Shown in pieces: positions 42,487-48,451 of a DNA stretch of 64,000 nucleotides (the stretch's first letter is position 1; every line of letters begins with the position of its first letter). Origin of the DNA: Rhodospirillaceae bacterium. GTDB lineage: Bacteria > Pseudomonadota > Alphaproteobacteria > Rhodospirillales > JABHCV01. The stretch covers positions 62,001 to 126,000 of the forward strand of contig JABJHA010000015.1 of NCBI GenBank assembly GCA_018662005.1, written 5' to 3'. The notes beneath the pieces are model-generated. The model had not been told where the DNA came from and did not search any database. It saw only the letters and a list, made by a program, of their open reading frames with translations. A program made the position numbers and the translations under genes.

Positions 42487-43587
42487 TTACCGGAGAACGA
42501 CCCGCTGACGTTTTGGCCCCCAGGTGCCCGGCGGACCATCGAAGACACCGGCGCACGCCGTGCCGCAGTTTTGGCAATGCCCATCGGCGCTTAAGGCCCA
42601 GGTAGAAAGTTGATACCAGTCACGGCCGATCAGCATTTCGCCGCAGTTGTGGCAATAGGTGCTCTCGCCCTCGAAGTCGTGGACATTGCCCGTATAGGCG
42701 TAGCGGACGCCATTTTTAAGGGCGATTCGGCGAGCCATCTTCAAGGTTTCAAATGGCGTCGCCGGAATATCCATCATCTTCCAGTCCGGATGAAAGGCCG
42801 AAAAATGCATGGGCACGTTCGGCCCCAGGTTTTCAACCACCCACTGAGTCATCTCCTCGATTTCACCCTCGGAATCATTCTCGCCGGGGATCAGCAAGGT
42901 GGTGATTTCAAACCACACATCGGTTTCATGTTTCAGATAGCTCAGGGTTTCGAGCACCGGCGCCAGTTCGGTTGAGCACAGGCGTTTATAGAAATCCTCG
43001 GTAAAAGCCTTAAGGTCAATATTGGCGGCGTCCATGTGCTGATAGAATTCAACCCGCGGTTCCGGGCAGACATAACCCGCCGTCACCGCCACATTGCTGA
43101 CGCCGCGCTCACGGCAGGCTTTGGCCACATCAACGGCGTATTCATGAAAAATGGTCGGATCATTGTAGGTATAGGCGACCGACTTGCATCCGGATTTCAG
43201 CGCCGCCTCGGCAATCATCTCAGGCGAGGCCAGATCCTGCAGCTTGTCAAATTCCCGCGACTTGCTGATGTCCCAGTTCTGGCAAAACTTACAGGTCAGA
43301 TTGCATCCCGCCGTGCCAAAGGACAGAACCGGGGTGCCGGGCAGGAAGTGGCCGAGCGGTTTCTTCTCAATTGGATCGATACAGAAGCCGGATGAGCGCC
43401 CGTAAGTGGTCAGGACGATTTCGCCGCCTGAGCAGGCGCGAACGAAACACAGGCCACGCTGACCGTCATGCAGCTTGCAGAAACGCGGGCACAAATCGCA
43501 CTGTACCCGCCCGTCATCAAGGCCGTGCCAGTAACGACCGGGAAAGGCGTCGGGGAAATTCTCGGCTGGCGCACTGTTATTCATCAT
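42487..43587 (-). CDS. amrS: AmmeMemoRadiSam system radical SAM enzyme
   Basis: A 366-residue radical SAM protein. The iron-sulfur ligands are in GCNLTCKFCQNW (CxxxCxxC). Extra cysteine clusters occur at the N-terminus (QCDLCPRFCKLHDGQRGLC) and in two C-terminal zinc-ribbon-like pairs (YCHNCGEML, CQNCGTAC), as in the AmrS group named for its association with AMMECR1 and Memo proteins. The reaction has not been established to my knowledge. Its start overlaps the dioxygenase stop by 4 bp, so the two are coupled. The Memo-AMMECR1 fusion is divergent just beyond. Confidence 0.92.
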   Translation of the reverse strand: MMNNSAPAENFPDAFPGRYWHGLDDGRVQCDLCPRFCKLHDGQRGLCFVRACSGGEIVLTTYGRSSGFCIDPIEKKPLGHFLPGTPVLSFGTAGCNLTCKFCQNWDISKSREFDKLQDLASPEMIAEAALKSGCKSVAYTYNDPTIFHEYAVDVAKACRERGVSNVAVTAGYVCPEPRVEFYQHMDAANIDLKAFTEDFYKRLCSTELAPVLETLSYLKHETDVWFEITTLLIPGENDSEGEIEEMTQWVVENLGPNVPMHFSAFHPDWKMMDIPATPFETLKMARRIALKNGVRYAYTGNVHDFEGESTYCHNCGEMLIGRDWYQLSTWALSADGHCQNCGTACAGVFDGPPGTWGPKRQRVVLR

Positions 43588-44363
43588 TCAACCTGCAGCA
43601 GACAATTGTCCGCCAAAGTTTCAATGGGTGTTAAATCCTGGTGATGTTTGAAATCAGGACGTGTCGGGCGACGCAGGGCGTTTGAGACCGGATTGACAAT
43701 CAGTGAAAAAATCGACCGGTCCCACGGTGACATATTATTTGGGGAACCATGAACCAGATTATCGAAGAAGATCAGCGCGGTTCCCTTTTTCCCCGTAGCC
43801 GAAACCATTCCATGCTGCTTAGTCAGTTCGCTGACCACATCTTCACCGACCGTCCAAAGCGGATAACTGGTGGTTTGAATATCCAGCGCCGTTTCATGTT
43901 CGCCGTATTTGTGTGATTGGGGGATGAAAAACAGAGGCCCGTTGAATTCAGATACATCATCGAGAAAAATATGCAGGTTCAAGGCCAGCGGTTTTTCAAC
44001 ACCATCTTCTCCGCGATGGGTGGCGAAATCATAATGCCATTGCCAGATTTCTCCTGAAAAGGCAGCTTTAACATTGACCTTCACCTGCTGAACATAAAGT
44101 GGTTCTGCGTATATCTGCTGCGCCATGTCGATCAATCGCGGATGTCGCACCAGCTTGGAAAACACCTCATCACGAAGATGCAAACCCATGGATGTTCTGA
44201 CCACCTTCGATGATTGCTCAACAATATTGGCTGGGTGCTCTTCGGTGAAAAGAGACGGCAACCGTGACTTGATCACCTCGACCTCATCAACTGAAAACCG
44301 TTCAGGGAGGACCAAATATCCCTGATGATTTAGTTGTTTAATCTGTTGATCCGACAGTTTCAC
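43584..44363 (-). CDS. Phytanoyl-CoA dioxygenase (PhyH/EctD-like) family protein
   Basis: A 259-residue Fe(II)/2-oxoglutarate dioxygenase. The facial triad is visible as HxD in IWQWHYDFATHRGEDG and the distal His in DNLVHGSPNNMSPWDR, followed by an Arg for the 2-oxoglutarate carboxylate. The surrounding FLDDVSEFNGPLFFIPQSHK resembles ectoine hydroxylase and its relatives, but no ectABC genes are nearby. I chose GTG 44363 (VKLSDQQIKQL) because residues upstream look non-coding. Overlap with amrS suggests that it serves the same pathway. Confidence 0.85.
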   Translation of the reverse strand: MKLSDQQIKQLNHQGYLVLPERFSVDEVEVIKSRLPSLFTEEHPANIVEQSSKVVRTSMGLHLRDEVFSKLVRHPRLIDMAQQIYAEPLYVQQVKVNVKAAFSGEIWQWHYDFATHRGEDGVEKPLALNLHIFLDDVSEFNGPLFFIPQSHKYGEHETALDIQTTSYPLWTVGEDVVSELTKQHGMVSATGKKGTALIFFDNLVHGSPNNMSPWDRSIFSLIVNPVSNALRRPTRPDFKHHQDLTPIETLADNCLLQVE

Positions 44364-44507
44364 TAGGCATTTCCCACATAAATTCCAAATCCAGGATAAT
44401 GCTAGCCAACTTGCTCCAATGCAGGAAGATTTTTCGAAGGCCACGCTTTGAAATTCAAGCCGCCGCAGCCCCTTTACTTCACGTCCCGGCGGGACTACTT
44501 TTTTGGA

Positions 44508-45887
44508 ATGGGCTCAATCAGACCACCTGCCGTTGCCGGAACCTTCTATTCGGGCAGTTCAGAACAGCTTGGCGCCGACGTTGCCGGTTTTCTGGCCGCT
44601 GCCGAAACCGGGACAGCCGTCCCCAAGGCGATCATCGTTCCCCATGCGGGCTTTATATATTCCGGTTCCACCGCGGCCAGCGCTTTTGTGCTGCTGAAAG
44701 CCGCCGCCGCGACGATCAGGCGGGTGGTTTTGCTGGGACCGTGTCACCGGGTGCCTTTGAGCGGACTGGCCTTGAGCAGTGCCGAGGCCTTTTCGACACC
44801 GCTTGGCAACGTCGCCATCGATAGCGAGGCGGCCCGCGCCATTGCCAACCTGCCCCAGGTTCAGGTGTTTGACGAGACCCACGCCCAGGAACATTCACTG
44901 GAAGTGCAATTGCCGTTCCTGCAAGCGGTGCTTGAGGATTTTAAAGTGCTGCCGCTGGTGGTTGGCGACGCAAATCCAGACATGGTCGCCGAAATTCTCG
45001 ATGCCCTGTGGGGAGGTCCCGAAACGCTGATCGTGATTTCCTCGGACCTGAGCCACTTCCTTGATTATGAGCGGGCCCGAAGTCTCGACGCCAGCACCAG
45101 CCGGGCCATTGAAAACCTGGACCCCGCCGCCATCGGCGATGATCAGGCTTGCGGGCGCAACCCCGTTAAAGGTTTGCTGGCGCTGGCCAAACGACGCGGC
45201 CTGAAAGTCGAAACGCTGGGCCTGTGTAATTCAGGCGACACCGCAGGAACCAAAGACCGTGTCGTTGGCTATGGCGCCTGGGCGTTTTATGAGGGCGACA
45301 AAAGTGAAGATTTTGAAGCCAGGACTCGCACCCTTCTCGATGAACACGGCGTGACCCTGCTTGCCCTGGCTAGTGACAGCATCAACCACGGCCTTGCCGA
45401 TGGAACGCCTGCCCCGATCAATCTGGTCGATTTTCCAGCCGCCATCACCGCCCCCGGCGCCTCTTTTGTGACCCTGAAAAAGAACGGCCAGTTGCGCGGA
45501 TGCATTGGATCGGCACAGGCCCATAGGCCGCTGGTGACTGACGTTACCGACAACGCATTTGCCTCGGCCTTCCGCGATCATCGTTTCTCGCCGTTGATGG
45601 TAGATGAATTGGTCGGGCTGGAGCTTTCCATATCCGTGTTAAGCCCGTCTTCACCAATGAGCATTACAAGCGAGAAGGATTTGCTAAAACAACTGAGGCC
45701 ACAAATTGACGGGCTGATCATTGAAGATAAAGGGATGCGCGCCCTGTTCCTGCCTTCGGTTTGGCGACAGCTGCCCCAGCCTGAACAGTTTCTCGGTCAT
45801 TTGAAGGCCAAGGCCGGAATGGCCAGGGGCCACTGGTCACCAACATTTAAAGCATGGCGTTTTATCGCCGCCGAAATATCCGCTTAA
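44508..45887 (+). CDS. amrB-amrA: Memo-AMMECR1 fusion (AmmeMemoRadiSam proteins B and A)
   Basis: A 459-residue fusion. Residues 1-265 are a Memo domain related to class III extradiol dioxygenases, with conserved metal-type histidines in IIVPHAGFIYSGS and LGPCHRVPL and a late LGLCNSGDTAG block. Residues about 280-459 are an AMMECR1 domain with the invariant LRGCIGS motif and LELSISVLSP. Start ATG 44508 gives MGSIRPPAVAGTFY, the usual Memo opening. The two domains are fused in many bacteria. Their joint reaction with the radical SAM enzyme is unknown. It is divergent from the dioxygenase and followed by an isochorismatase-like gene 20 bp on. Confidence 0.92.
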   Translation: MGSIRPPAVAGTFYSGSSEQLGADVAGFLAAAETGTAVPKAIIVPHAGFIYSGSTAASAFVLLKAAAATIRRVVLLGPCHRVPLSGLALSSAEAFSTPLGNVAIDSEAARAIANLPQVQVFDETHAQEHSLEVQLPFLQAVLEDFKVLPLVVGDANPDMVAEILDALWGGPETLIVISSDLSHFLDYERARSLDASTSRAIENLDPAAIGDDQACGRNPVKGLLALAKRRGLKVETLGLCNSGDTAGTKDRVVGYGAWAFYEGDKSEDFEARTRTLLDEHGVTLLALASDSINHGLADGTPAPINLVDFPAAITAPGASFVTLKKNGQLRGCIGSAQAHRPLVTDVTDNAFASAFRDHRFSPLMVDELVGLELSISVLSPSSPMSITSEKDLLKQLRPQIDGLIIEDKGMRALFLPSVWRQLPQPEQFLGHLKAKAGMARGHWSPTFKAWRFIAAEISA

Positions 45888-45907
45888 GCAAAAAGGAATA
45901 ATAGAAA

Positions 45908-46513
45908 GTGTCTGAACCCAAAACCCTGTTGTCAATGGCCGGTGCGCCGATGGACCCGTCGAAACTCTCCGATTCCGCGCTGGTACTGATTGACTGTCAG
46001 AATGAATATGTCTCGGGTGTACTCGCCCTGCCCGCCGTCGCCCCGGCTTTGGCCGAAGCGGCAAAAGTGTTGGCCCGGGCCCGCGACGCGGGTACACCTG
46101 TTGTCCATGTGGTCCACCACGGTCGCCCGGGCGGCGGTGTCTTCGACCCGGATGGACCATCCTCGGAAATTGCACCGCAAGTGGCGGCTGTCGAAGGCGA
46201 AGCGCAGGTTACCAAGGCGCTGCCCAATGCTTTCGCCGGAACCAATCTGGATGACATTCTTAAAGCAACCGGCAAGAAGGAACTGATCCTTGTCGGTTTC
46301 ATGACCCACATGTGCATCAGCGCCACGGCCCGGGTGGCGACGGACCTGGGCTACCGGGTCAGTATTGTCGCAGACGCCACCGCGACCCGTGATTTGCCGG
46401 GACCCGGCGGTGACGGGGTGGTCGGGGCCGAAGACCTGAAACGGGTGGAACTGGCGGCCCTTGCCGATCGTTTCGCCATTATCGTAAAATCTGCCGCAGA
46501 GTTGGGGGAATAG
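45908..46513 (+). CDS. Isochorismatase-like cysteine hydrolase
   Basis: A 201-residue alpha/beta hydrolase of the cysteine hydrolase family. The catalytic triad is complete: Asp in LVLIDCQNEY, Lys in VTKALPNAF, Cys in THMCISATARVATD. Substrates of such enzymes include ureidoacrylate, nicotinamide, N-carbamoyl compounds and isochorismate; none is indicated. The start appears to be GTG 45908. It follows the Memo-AMMECR1 gene by 20 bp and precedes cysQ by 4 bp, forming a likely operon. Confidence 0.9.
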   Translation: MSEPKTLLSMAGAPMDPSKLSDSALVLIDCQNEYVSGVLALPAVAPALAEAAKVLARARDAGTPVVHVVHHGRPGGGVFDPDGPSSEIAPQVAAVEGEAQVTKALPNAFAGTNLDDILKATGKKELILVGFMTHMCISATARVATDLGYRVSIVADATATRDLPGPGGDGVVGAEDLKRVELAALADRFAIIVKSAAELGE

Positions 46514-46517
46514 CCGC

Positions 46518-47294
46518 GTGACACTAAACATCACAATCGACCTGATGGAACAGATTGGTGACCTTGCCAAAAGTGCCGGCAAGGAAATCATGAAAATCTA
46601 CAACAGCGACTTCACCGTCGACACCAAGGCTGATAACTCCCCCGTAACCGAGGCAGACCGCATCGCCGAAGAACTGATCATCCGTGGCCTGCGTGAAGGC
46701 GTCACAGCCCAGTTTCCGATTATCGGCGAGGAAGCCTTCGCCGCCGGGACCGCGCCCGAAATTGGCTCCGGCCCGTTCTGGCTGGTTGACGCCCTTGACG
46801 GCACCAAGAGCTTTATTTCCAAAAGCGCCGAGTTCACCGTCAACATTGCCCTGATTGATGGCGGCCTTCCGACCCTTGGCGTCGTTCACGCCCCTGCCTT
46901 AGGCGATACCTACTGGGGTAGTCGCAGCGGTGCGTTTTGGGAATCGGCGGACGAAACACCGAAAACCATCTCGTGCCGGGCCCCCGGCGGTGATGGCCTG
47001 GTCGTCGTTGCCAGCCGCAATCATCGCTCACCTGAACTGGAAGACTATATTGCCGAACTGGAGGTCAAAAATTCAACCAGCGCCGGCAGTTCTCTTAAAT
47101 TTTGTCTGGTCGCCGCAGGCCTTGCCGATATCTATCCGCGGCTGGGCCGGACCATGGAATGGGACACCGCTGCTGGACACGCCGTCGTCATGGCCGCAGG
47201 GGGTAGTGTGCGCAAACTCGACGACAGCCCACTGACTTACGCCAAGGCCGGGTTCGAGAACCCGCATTTCGTCGTTCGTGGGCTCGACGAGTAG
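46518..47294 (+). CDS. cysQ: 3'(2'),5'-bisphosphate nucleotidase
   Basis: A 258-residue member of the inositol monophosphatase fold. It removes phosphate from 3'-phosphoadenosine 5'-phosphate, a by-product of sulfate assimilation. Metal-binding motifs are the IIGEEAFA block with its Glu pair, WLVDALDGTKSF (DxLDGT) and the WDTAAGHAVVMAAGG block. The start is GTG 46518. It ends before a candidate small RNA and the sua5 gene. Confidence 0.9.
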   Translation: MTLNITIDLMEQIGDLAKSAGKEIMKIYNSDFTVDTKADNSPVTEADRIAEELIIRGLREGVTAQFPIIGEEAFAAGTAPEIGSGPFWLVDALDGTKSFISKSAEFTVNIALIDGGLPTLGVVHAPALGDTYWGSRSGAFWESADETPKTISCRAPGGDGLVVVASRNHRSPELEDYIAELEVKNSTSAGSSLKFCLVAAGLADIYPRLGRTMEWDTAAGHAVVMAAGGSVRKLDDSPLTYAKAGFENPHFVVRGLDE

Positions 47295-47318
47295 GCAGAA
47301 AATAACGACTTTCAAGTC

Positions 47319-47347
47319 TTGACGGTGATTTTCTATAGGCGCAATAT
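47319..47347 (+). promoter_or_regulatory. Promoter candidate for the leader or small RNA
   Basis: TTGACG (47319-47324) with a 17-bp spacer before CAATAT (47342-47347). The -35 hexamer matches five of six consensus bases. Transcription would start near 47354, just before a series of hairpins. Confidence 0.45.
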
Positions 47348-47353
47348 AGTCCA

Positions 47354-47496
47354 CAGGTAGCCGGGAAACCGGCCCCTGAAAAAGCCGCCGTAACCCTTAC
47401 GGTGACTGCTGACCGGGTCATTACCGCGGATGGTCCAGTCATTAGCAGAACAGAGAGTAAAGAGCCGTTGGCTGGTCCGGCGGCTCTTTCTTTGGT
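47354..47496 (+). ncRNA. Candidate structured small RNA or leader, about 140 nt
   Basis: Four consecutive stem-loops are readable. SL1 is GCCGG-GAAA-CCGGC (47360-47373), with a GNRA-type tetraloop. SL2 is CCGTAA-CCC-TTACGG (47388-47402). SL3 is GACTG-ct-GACC (47404-47414) pairing with GGTCCAGTC (47432-47440). SL4 is AAAGAGCCG (47459-47467) pairing with CGGCTCTTT (47481-47489), followed by CTTTCTTT like an intrinsic terminator. A promoter candidate lies upstream. The region could be an independent RNA or an attenuator-type leader of sua5. I found no match to riboswitch consensus sequences I know. Confidence 0.5.
47459..47496 (+). terminator. Intrinsic terminator (or attenuator) before sua5
   Basis: A 9-bp perfect stem (47459-47467 with 47481-47489), 13-nt loop and a T-rich tail. 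It lies 20 bp before the preferred sua5 start. Confidence 0.6.
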
Positions 47497-47515
47497 GATC
47501 AGTAAAGGCAAACCC

Positions 47516-48451
47516 TTGCTTCAGGAAAATTCCGAAAATATCGCCAAAGCCGCCACCATCATTACTAACGGCGGACTGGTCGCCTTTCCTACTGAAACCG
47601 TATACGGCCTGGGCGGCGACGCCACCAACGATGACGCCATCGCCGGTATATTCGAGGCCAAGGAGCGGCCCCGCTTTAATCCGCTGATTATCCACTTTGC
47701 TGATCATGAAAGCGCCGCCGCCACCGTTGAATTCAACGAAACGGCAGAAGCACTGGCCGGTGCTTTCTGGCCCGGCGCCTTGACCCTGGTTTTGAAGCGC
47801 CAACCCGATTGCCCGGTTTCCCTGCTCGCCAGCGCCGGGCTCGACACCCTGGCGGTGCGGGTTCCCAACCATCCCCTCGCCCACGCCCTGCTAAAAGCGG
47901 CAAAGACACCCATCGCGGCACCCAGCGCCAACCGCTCGGGACACATCAGCCCAACGACAGCCGCCCACGTCGAGGAAAGCCTCGGTGATGACATTGACGC
48001 CATAATCGATGGTGGCCCCTGTGTTATTGGTCTGGAATCGACGGTTATCGATTTAAGCACCGATACCCCGACCCTGTTGCGACACGGTGGCACCGCCCGC
48101 GAGGACATCGAAGCTGTCATTGGAACCCTTGAAATTTCGGACGGCGGCGAAGAAATGCCGCGTTCTCCGGGTATGTTAAAGCGTCATTACGCGCCTATGA
48201 TCCCGCTGCGTCTGAACGCTGAAAAACCCGAGCCCGGCGAGGCATTGCTCGCCTTCGGGCCCAAGGTCAGCGCCCGCCATGCCAACTTAAGCCGCAGCGG
48301 CGACTTAAAAGAAGCAGCGGCCAACCTGTTCGCCATGCTACACATGCTCGATCAACCGGGCTTAAAAGGCATCGCCGTCATGACAATCCCCAACACCGGA
48401 CTGGGCGTCGCCATCAACGACCGGCTGAAGCGGGCGGTGAGTTCGTCATGA
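47516..48451 (+). CDS. tsaC: L-threonylcarbamoyladenylate synthase (Sua5/YrdC type)
   Basis: This enzyme makes threonylcarbamoyl-AMP from threonine, bicarbonate and ATP for the t6A modification of ANN-decoding tRNAs. The YrdC domain shows GGLVAFPTETVYGLGGDA, RPRFNPLIIHF, FWPGALTLVL, AAPSANRSGHISPT and GLESTVIDL. It is followed by the SPGMLKRHYAP linker and a Sua5 C-terminal domain, so it is the long form. The frame is open back to GTG 47402, but those codons overlap the hairpins and resemble no family sequence; TTG 47516 after AAAGG gives the usual start. GTG 47495 is a further option. It overlaps the next gene by 4 bp. Confidence 0.9.
   Translation: MLQENSENIAKAATIITNGGLVAFPTETVYGLGGDATNDDAIAGIFEAKERPRFNPLIIHFADHESAAATVEFNETAEALAGAFWPGALTLVLKRQPDCPVSLLASAGLDTLAVRVPNHPLAHALLKAAKTPIAAPSANRSGHISPTTAAHVEESLGDDIDAIIDGGPCVIGLESTVIDLSTDTPTLLRHGGTAREDIEAVIGTLEISDGGEEMPRSPGMLKRHYAPMIPLRLNAEKPEPGEALLAFGPKVSARHANLSRSGDLKEAAANLFAMLHMLDQPGLKGIAVMTIPNTGLGVAINDRLKRAVSSS

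Follow-up and report, generated by a model that had tools for sequence, protein, structure and literature searches.

A predicted small RNA gene of Rhodospirillales-type alphaproteobacteria with a palindromic loop that covaries with itself

The window, i.e. the whole stretch of 64,000 nucleotides that was analysed, derives from contig JABJHA010000015.1 of a Rhodospirillaceae bacterium. Within it, the interval between the genes cysQ and sua5 carries a promoter-like element followed by four stem-loops (Table 1). Further 5', the open reading frames at 42487–46513 appear by eye to encode a radical SAM activase, a phytanoyl-CoA dioxygenase-like protein and a MEMO/AMMECR1 fusion. An initial annotation had pointed to the hexamers and to the order of the hairpins, with the GAAA tetraloop first and the T-rich tail last, and all are present in the sequence as and where described; its unit of about 140 nt corresponds to a predicted RNA spanning 47354–47493. 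The 178-nt stretch containing these features has a predicted folding energy of −67.7 kcal/mol, compared with −56.0 ± 4.2 kcal/mol in 200 dinucleotide shuffles (z −2.8; none of the shuffles was as low). In the minimum-energy fold, stem-loop 2 has the 3-nt loop reported previously on a stem of 8 bp rather than 6, and stem-loop 3 is a single unbranched hairpin with bulges. The sua5 frame is open from GTG 47495, just 2 nt past the T tract, and by eye the next in-frame start is TTG 47516.

Table 1. Features of the interval between cysQ and sua5 (window coordinates)
Feature	Positions	Strand	Basis
Upstream gene cysQ (inositol monophosphatase family)	46518..47294	+	ORF; Pfam Inositol_P, E 2e-48; name cysQ from the initial annotation
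Promoter-like hexamers: −35 TTGACG (47319–47324), 17-nt spacer, −10 CAATAT (47342–47347)	47319..47347	+	Read in sequence
Stem-loop 1; variable in sequence among members, with a GAAA tetraloop in the window	47354..47378	+	Window fold; folds of 12 members
Stem-loop 2; most conserved part, loop CCC, AG on 5' flank	47386..47404	+	Fold; covariation (helix 1)
Stem-loop 3; bearer of the palindromic apical loop	47406..47448	+	Fold; covariation (helices 2–4); de novo consensus
Self-complementary 6-nt segment CCGCGG of the loop; proposed contact of a kissing-loop dimer	47424..47429	+	Nine palindromes at the site among members
Purine-rich single-stranded linker	47449..47458	+	Read in sequence
Stem-loop 4 and T-rich tail TTTCTTT; intrinsic terminator, predicted 3' end	~47459..47493	+	Fold; terminator scan; helix 5 covariation
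Downstream gene sua5 (threonylcarbamoyl-AMP synthase)	47495..48451	+	Reading frame; Pfam Sua5_yciO_yrdC, E 7.5e-59

When 60 related genomes were searched at the DNA level, clear homologues (E 1.3e-8 or better) were returned from four relatives within the family of the window, two of which share its genus, and from six genomes belonging to other families; by the same search, a 90% complete genome of the same genus (G002) gave none. At E ≤ 0.01, a covariance model of stem-loops 2–4 built from a 12-sequence alignment, A2 (model R1), matched 106 of the 317 genomes in the order, with doubt attaching to the weak matches, and it matched 22 of 385 genomes in a sample of the class at E ≤ 0.001, many of them weakly. 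The second model (R2), built from the 59-row alignment A4, matched 87 of the 317 genomes at E ≤ 1e-4, among which the matches in G224, G249 and G152 looked chance-like when read, and, in the Pelagibius order, 37 of 61 genomes at E ≤ 1e-3, with 29 reaching E ≤ 1.9e-6. In the class sample, R2 matched 14 of the 385 genomes at E ≤ 1e-4, the other 371 giving nothing at this cut-off, and seven strong matches lie outside the order of the window (G317, G323, G374, G386, G474, G525 and G666). As a rule, there is one strong model match per genome; any others either score weakly or fall on the complementary strand of that element. A pattern scan using stem-loop 2 alone returned 58 named records, 51 of which are members by eye. 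Named carriers include Paramagnetospirillum caucaseum, Magnetospirillum fulvum and M. molischianum, Terasakiella brassicae, Pelagibius litoralis and P. marinus, Denitrobaculum tricleocarpae and Telmatospirillum, together with many metagenome-assembled genomes of Kiloniellaceae and Rhodospirillales; a distant search found no plasmid copies. The predicted RNA gene is conserved in Rhodospirillales-type alphaproteobacteria.

The comparisons below use 115 distinct members gathered with R1, R2 and the DNA pattern on stem-loop 2, none of which demands a palindrome, although R1 and R2 favour CCGCGG. Removal of identical sequences reduced 119 to 94, and subsequently 121 loci to 115. Members were taken from part of the R1 and R2 matches, and weak matches left unread were excluded, as were fourteen loci that have a terminator-like stem only and, among the 58 records of the pattern scan, three that are cut or broken and seven judged by eye to be chance matches (Nocardia, Planctomycetaceae, Anaerolineae, Hyphomicrobiaceae, Gemmatimonadetes, Alcaligenaceae and Herminiimonas). 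Two weak matches (L117 and L125) were retained, as both have CysQ upstream. In one genome (G041), two contigs hold half of an element each, by a contig end, and this is probably an assembly break. Two loci labelled Methylocystaceae (L134 and L136) carry the same element as the Terasakiella-type loci L055 and L053 of family f16; they probably come from the same genomes, and the Methylocystaceae names may be wrong.

At gathering cut-offs, no Rfam 15 family matches anywhere in the window, in line with the initial annotation, which had recognized no known riboswitch consensus. A permissive search of 47250–47600 (E up to 10) gave three chance-level matches, none of them at cut-off, the best being SNORD11B on the opposite strand with 16.8 bits against a cut-off of 50; at 20 member loci no family matched the element, the sole match being a tRNA elsewhere in L168. 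A riboswitch or other known RNA was rejected as an identification for want of any such match. No description of the RNA was found in the literature, as covered by papers mostly from non-subscription journals and without their supplements, nor was any paper found that joins cysQ, sua5 and an sRNA; the accessible part of one Magnetospirillum transcriptome paper does not name cysQ.

Comparison of the members establishes that the predicted structure covaries. In A2, whose structure was drawn from the folds of single members, 94.7% of cells pair and 13 pairs change on both sides, values that none of 500 shuffles reached; in its count of further pair types the alignment is unremarkable, being equalled or exceeded by 142 of the 500 shuffles. 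RNAalifold run on A2 alone arrives at the same helices, with 34 pairs, 13 of them with double changes. A4 comprises 59 members from a hand-chosen list, aligned to R1, with those whose stem-loop 3 has been rebuilt left out. Here, 92.4% of cells are paired, 30 of 35 pairs have changed on both sides, and there are 371 double-change cells compared with 119 in shuffles (0 of 500 as high); shifting the partner by one to three columns lowers pairing to 36–58%. The A4 counts lean towards the model because the alignment was fitted to its structure, a bias from which A2 and RNAalifold are free. The conservation and compensatory changes in relatives that the initial annotation had named as support are, therefore, both present.

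Stem-loop 2 is conserved beyond what base pairing alone would require: AGCCGCCG, at 47383–47390 on its 5' side, is common to 99 of the 115 members, and CGG(T/C)GAC(T/G) is present in 107. The 40 nt before the model start, where stem-loop 1 lies, have a mean fold z of −1.66 against letter shuffles (115 members). In 54 of the 115 members, G(T/C)GACG closes the 3' strand of stem-loop 1 immediately ahead of stem-loop 2, and stem-loop 2 in turn has CGG(T/C)GAC at its end; such tandem hairpins with the same odd 3' strand occur in Kiloniellaceae and in members of the genus g31 (e.g. L152, L167 and L091), and may represent the duplication of a protein-binding hairpin. In the branch to which the window belongs, stem-loop 1 is without this 3' strand. 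The linker between stem-loops 3 and 4 is a possible protein-binding stretch, and contains GAGAG (at model offsets 60–110) in 33 of the 115 members.

On the single sequence, the window's promoter is a resemblance only, since CAATAT, a poor hexamer, matches three of six consensus letters and a generic promoter scan of the window found nothing at 47319–47347. It is the place of the element among the members that comparison establishes: a −35-like element (TTGAC, TTGAT, TTGCA or TTGCT) lies 50–95 nt upstream of the model start in 104 of the 115 distinct members, against 17.6 expected from letter shuffling, and in 94 of those 104 it lies at 55–64 nt. The TTGC forms were joined to the pattern after the Magnetospirillum members had been read; TTGAC alone, counted without a shuffle comparison, is upstream in 80 of the 115. 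This nearly fixed distance leads us to infer that transcription starts at the foot of stem-loop 1, at about 47354; at the level of sequence, the predicted gene has a promoter-like element of its own directly upstream. Ten of the 115 members, all from the two families f1 and f16, have the inverted repeat CAAGNCTTG across or next to the −35 element; they are the window (47313–47321) and nine other loci, and the repeat is possibly a regulator site or a conserved form of the promoter.

At the 3' end, a terminator scan lists 47470–47485, which is no evidence by itself because two terminators were found where 1.5 were expected. The stem, in contrast, is kept across the members: all 13 pairs of helix 5, in stem-loop 4, change on both sides in some of the 59 members of A4, indicating an intrinsic terminator. 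A T-rich run following it satisfies a strict pattern in 71 of the 115 members only.

The initial annotation missed what is the most interesting part of the element, the self-complementary apical loop of stem-loop 3. The loop carries CCGCGG in most members and CCTAGG, CCATGG, CGATCG, TGATCA, GCGCGC or CTGCAG in others, all of them palindromes; in all, nine different 6-nt palindromes occur at this site among the 115 distinct members. In A4, where the loop is 8 nt long in most members, a 6-nt palindrome is present in 59 of 59 stem-loop 3 loops (8.5 expected when the loop letters are shuffled), compared with 0 of 59 stem-loop 2 loops and 3 of 59 terminator loops, although the 59 of 59 is not unbiased because the list was hand-picked and members with a rebuilt stem-loop 3 were left out. 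Over all 115 members, a rule that requires a stem-closed palindrome is satisfied by 87, against a mean of 14.0 and a maximum of 24 in 100 letter shuffles; this rule had been relaxed, allowing one mismatch in the stem, after a stricter one missed most of genus g31 (68 of 115, against 13.8 by shuffling). By eye, five of the 87 passing members are fortuitous (L057, L065, L101, L147 and L213), and three of the 28 failing members do hold CCGCGG (L182, L184 and L201); once doubtful members have been read, about 85 of the 115 have a palindrome and about 30 are without. CCGCGG is the commonest form, in 58 of the 87, and in 78 of 82 members the letter before the palindrome is a purine.

When hairpins are sought by a rule that ignores palindromes, 88 of the 115 members have one with a loop of 7–9 nt at the canonical place, and in 68 of these the last six loop letters are palindromic, where one in 64 random hexamers would be; of the other 20, nine have CCGCGG, CTGCAG or CCTAGG one to four letters away and eleven have none. 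When loop positions 1–6, 2–5 and 3–4 are treated as pairs (88 hexamers, with one choice of register unlike that in the palindrome-blind count), 85% of cells are paired compared with 64% after shuffling, and there are 37 double changes compared with 6.5, values that none of 1000 shuffles reached; in its count of pair types the loop is unremarkable, being equalled or exceeded by 97 of the 1000 shuffles. Sequence counts of this sort overstate the evidence because members share ancestry, whereas a count of changes on a tree does not. On a tree of CysQ from 79 members, of which 57 carry a palindrome, at least 10 changes from one palindrome to another are required, or 16 if absence is counted as a state. 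The tree was made quickly, and 20 of its 76 inner branches are starred; within genus g31, CTGCAG appears at three separate places, at forks with SH-aLRT values of 82–98, several being open. Loci read after the idea had been formed fall on both sides: L215 (CTGCAG), L217 (CGCGCG), L209 and L216 (CCCGGG), L199 (CCTAGG), L196, L203 and L204 (CCGCGG) and 11 loci of g31 (eight CCGCGG, three CTGCAG) fit, whereas L205–L208, L210, L211, L213 and five loci of family f22 (L233–L237) do not. A 6-nt palindrome in the apical loop is observed, and it is kept as its letters change; as far as comparison of members can tell, the loop covaries with itself.

The palindrome is not found in every member, and dimerization through the loop of stem-loop 3, as proposed below, is predicted not to be universal. 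The largest palindrome-less group is the Magnetospirillum-like genus g79; others are family f14, part of f21, Denitrobaculum-like records, L145 and its relatives, and the further singles L065, L101, L147, L208, L210, L211 and L213. In six Magnetospirillum-like loci (L087, L092, L106, L133, L155 and L177), a longer stem stands in place of the palindromic loop, and a second GC-rich hairpin has been inserted. In the palindrome-less members, dimerization may have been lost or the contact may have moved.

The genes on either side bear on whether the element serves sua5. Over the 115 distinct members, with the Sua5 frame taken from 47495, CysQ is directly upstream in 72, Sua5 is directly downstream in 67 and both are in place in 40; either gene can also adjoin the element without the other. 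The predicted RNA gene probably lay between cysQ and sua5 ancestrally. Elsewhere, in a sample of downstream regions that were read (L138, twelve loci and ten loci, with eight proteins scanned against Pfam), the next gene encodes an SCP2-family protein in the Terasakiella group (L053; f16), where two genes that by eye are U32-like follow, a GNAT protein in L087 (g79) and a serine hydroxymethyltransferase in L199; the downstream protein of L158 has no Pfam match. In four loci, the next gene is on the opposite strand and encodes an MFS transporter (L110), a Sel1-repeat protein (L061), RecO (L215) or a histidine kinase (L217).

A cis-acting attenuator or riboswitch-like leader, in which an alternative fold would switch the terminator and so decide transcription of sua5, would account for sua5 being the next same-strand gene in 67 of the 115 members, in 20 of which no cysQ is seen upstream, and in the window, by eye, AGCCGCCG on the 5' strand of stem-loop 2 could pair with CGGCGGCT on the 3' strand of the terminator. 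Against this, the element is not always upstream of, and on the strand of, sua5: the next gene differs in other members, and at the loci where it is convergent a leader role is excluded because a leader cannot serve such a gene. Moreover, pairing runs of at least 7 between stem-loop 2 and the terminator occur in 60 of 115 cases within members and in 1224 of 2300 between members, so that for this single pairing no terminator/antiterminator coupling is seen, and Rfam gives no riboswitch or leader match. A sua5 leader is accordingly very unlikely, and we give next to no credence to the hairpins being a translated 5' extension of sua5 from GTG 47402, or unrelated intergenic DNA. The window does have a 349-codon open frame from 47402, and the sua5 frame opens before the terminator in 18 of the 67 members with sua5 next, the window included; in the remaining 49, however, it opens after the element (39) or inside the terminator (10), and in L002, a relative with 96% identity, one extra nucleotide is inserted downstream of 47402 and ahead of the terminator. 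The initial annotation had put forward translation that starts at 47402 and runs through the hairpins as evidence to the contrary; this finds no support, and the sequence changes keep the base pairs. As far as the sua5 frame is concerned, no reading frame appears to be conserved across the element. Taken together, neighbours that vary or converge, no pairing of stem-loop 2 with its own terminator in particular, a −35 element in place and an unconserved frame argue for a free-standing small RNA gene: of the two options offered initially, an undescribed sRNA is well supported by the sequence, and a leader of sua5 is not, on grounds of gene order, strand and the missing coupling.

That the loop covaries with itself makes a kissing-loop homodimer the simplest mechanism, and the competing accounts have to explain the same observation. 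An sRNA whose palindrome is instead the site of a dimeric protein, a site acting at the DNA level, or a segment that pairs with a target bearing the same palindrome, is improbable in our view. A two-fold symmetric protein or a restriction-type enzyme would also recognize palindromes, and the prevalence of CCGCGG in the members that pass the stem rule would suit such a site; nine palindromes at one place, on the other hand, leave no common sequence for a protein to read. A distant target would need to have the same palindrome and to change along with it each time. Nearby, in ~1 kb on each side of 20 members with variant palindromes, a member's own hexamer occurs 0.90 times per locus, compared with 0.89 in loci with another loop, and a local target with the same palindrome was rejected, there being no enrichment. 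An antisense match of ATTACCGCGG to CCGCGGTAAT, which we take to be a segment of the 530 loop of 16S rRNA, was considered separately and dropped, as the members with CTGCAG, CGATCG and other forms lose it.

Our preferred reading is that 47354–47493 encodes an independently transcribed, intrinsically terminated sRNA of ~140 nt, of an undescribed family, for which a kissing-loop homodimer is the working or stored form, and we regard this as highly likely. Sequence comparison shows selection both for pairing within the helices and for self-complementarity in one loop. As to its parts, there is very probably a small RNA gene of about this length, present in many relatives and absent from the library of RNA families, and it is probable that the RNA functions as a pair. 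Transcription would begin from the promoter-like element and end at the intrinsic terminator, and two copies of the RNA would then pair in the cell through the apical palindromes of stem-loop 3 (CCGCGG in the window). The dimer would act in trans on other RNAs or on a protein, presumably through the near-invariant stem-loop 2, the likely partner-binding part, two of which it would present. Dimerization would thereby either tie the activity to the concentration of the RNA itself, or render the RNA bivalent. It also seems likely that this is a chromosomal sRNA family built as a homodimer, in which selection on self-pairing is strong enough to drive the swaps between palindromes through recurrent double substitutions, and in which it is the quaternary structure, and not the sequence of the loop, that is conserved.

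Evolution alone supplies the evidence for the dimer, which is unusually clean: the letters of the loop have changed many times, and self-complementarity has been kept. The natural compensatory mutants that result, some of them within one genus, make it directly testable whether sRNA dimerization is functional. An sRNA family is also added that is carried by named strains, e.g. of Pelagibius and Terasakiella, and of Magnetospirillum, where it is without the palindrome.

Among the closest known systems are palindromic kissing-loop dimers such as the HIV-1 dimerization initiation site (DIS), which has a purine-flanked palindrome of 6 nt that differs between HIV-1 subtypes, in a loop of 9 nt. The DIS is described as a hairpin with a palindromic apical loop through which two copies pair, loop to identical loop (PMC4066764). 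The present RNA is similarly proposed to pair with a second copy through a palindromic apical loop, here on the strength of comparative data; it differs in being a bacterial small RNA with a promoter-like element and a terminator and no kinship to retroviral leaders, in having a loop of 8 nt in most members rather than 9, and in having at least nine palindromes in use. Palindromic kissing loops of two and four nucleotides are tabulated for the guanidine-II (mini-ykkC) riboswitch and the hatchet ribozyme in another study, according to which the guanidine-II loop is conserved in sequence, and the main text of which does not contain the word sRNA (PMC7357161). Those dimers belong to cis-regulatory or catalytic RNAs, whereas the palindrome here is 6 nt long and its letters change. 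In its overall organization, i.e. a short intergenic gene with a promoter-like element, several stem-loops and an intrinsic terminator, the predicted RNA resembles the trans-encoded sRNAs of alphaproteobacteria (e.g. those of Rhizobiales), from which it is set apart by having no Rfam 15 match (in the window and at 20 loci), by its occurrence in other taxa and by a loop that covaries with itself.
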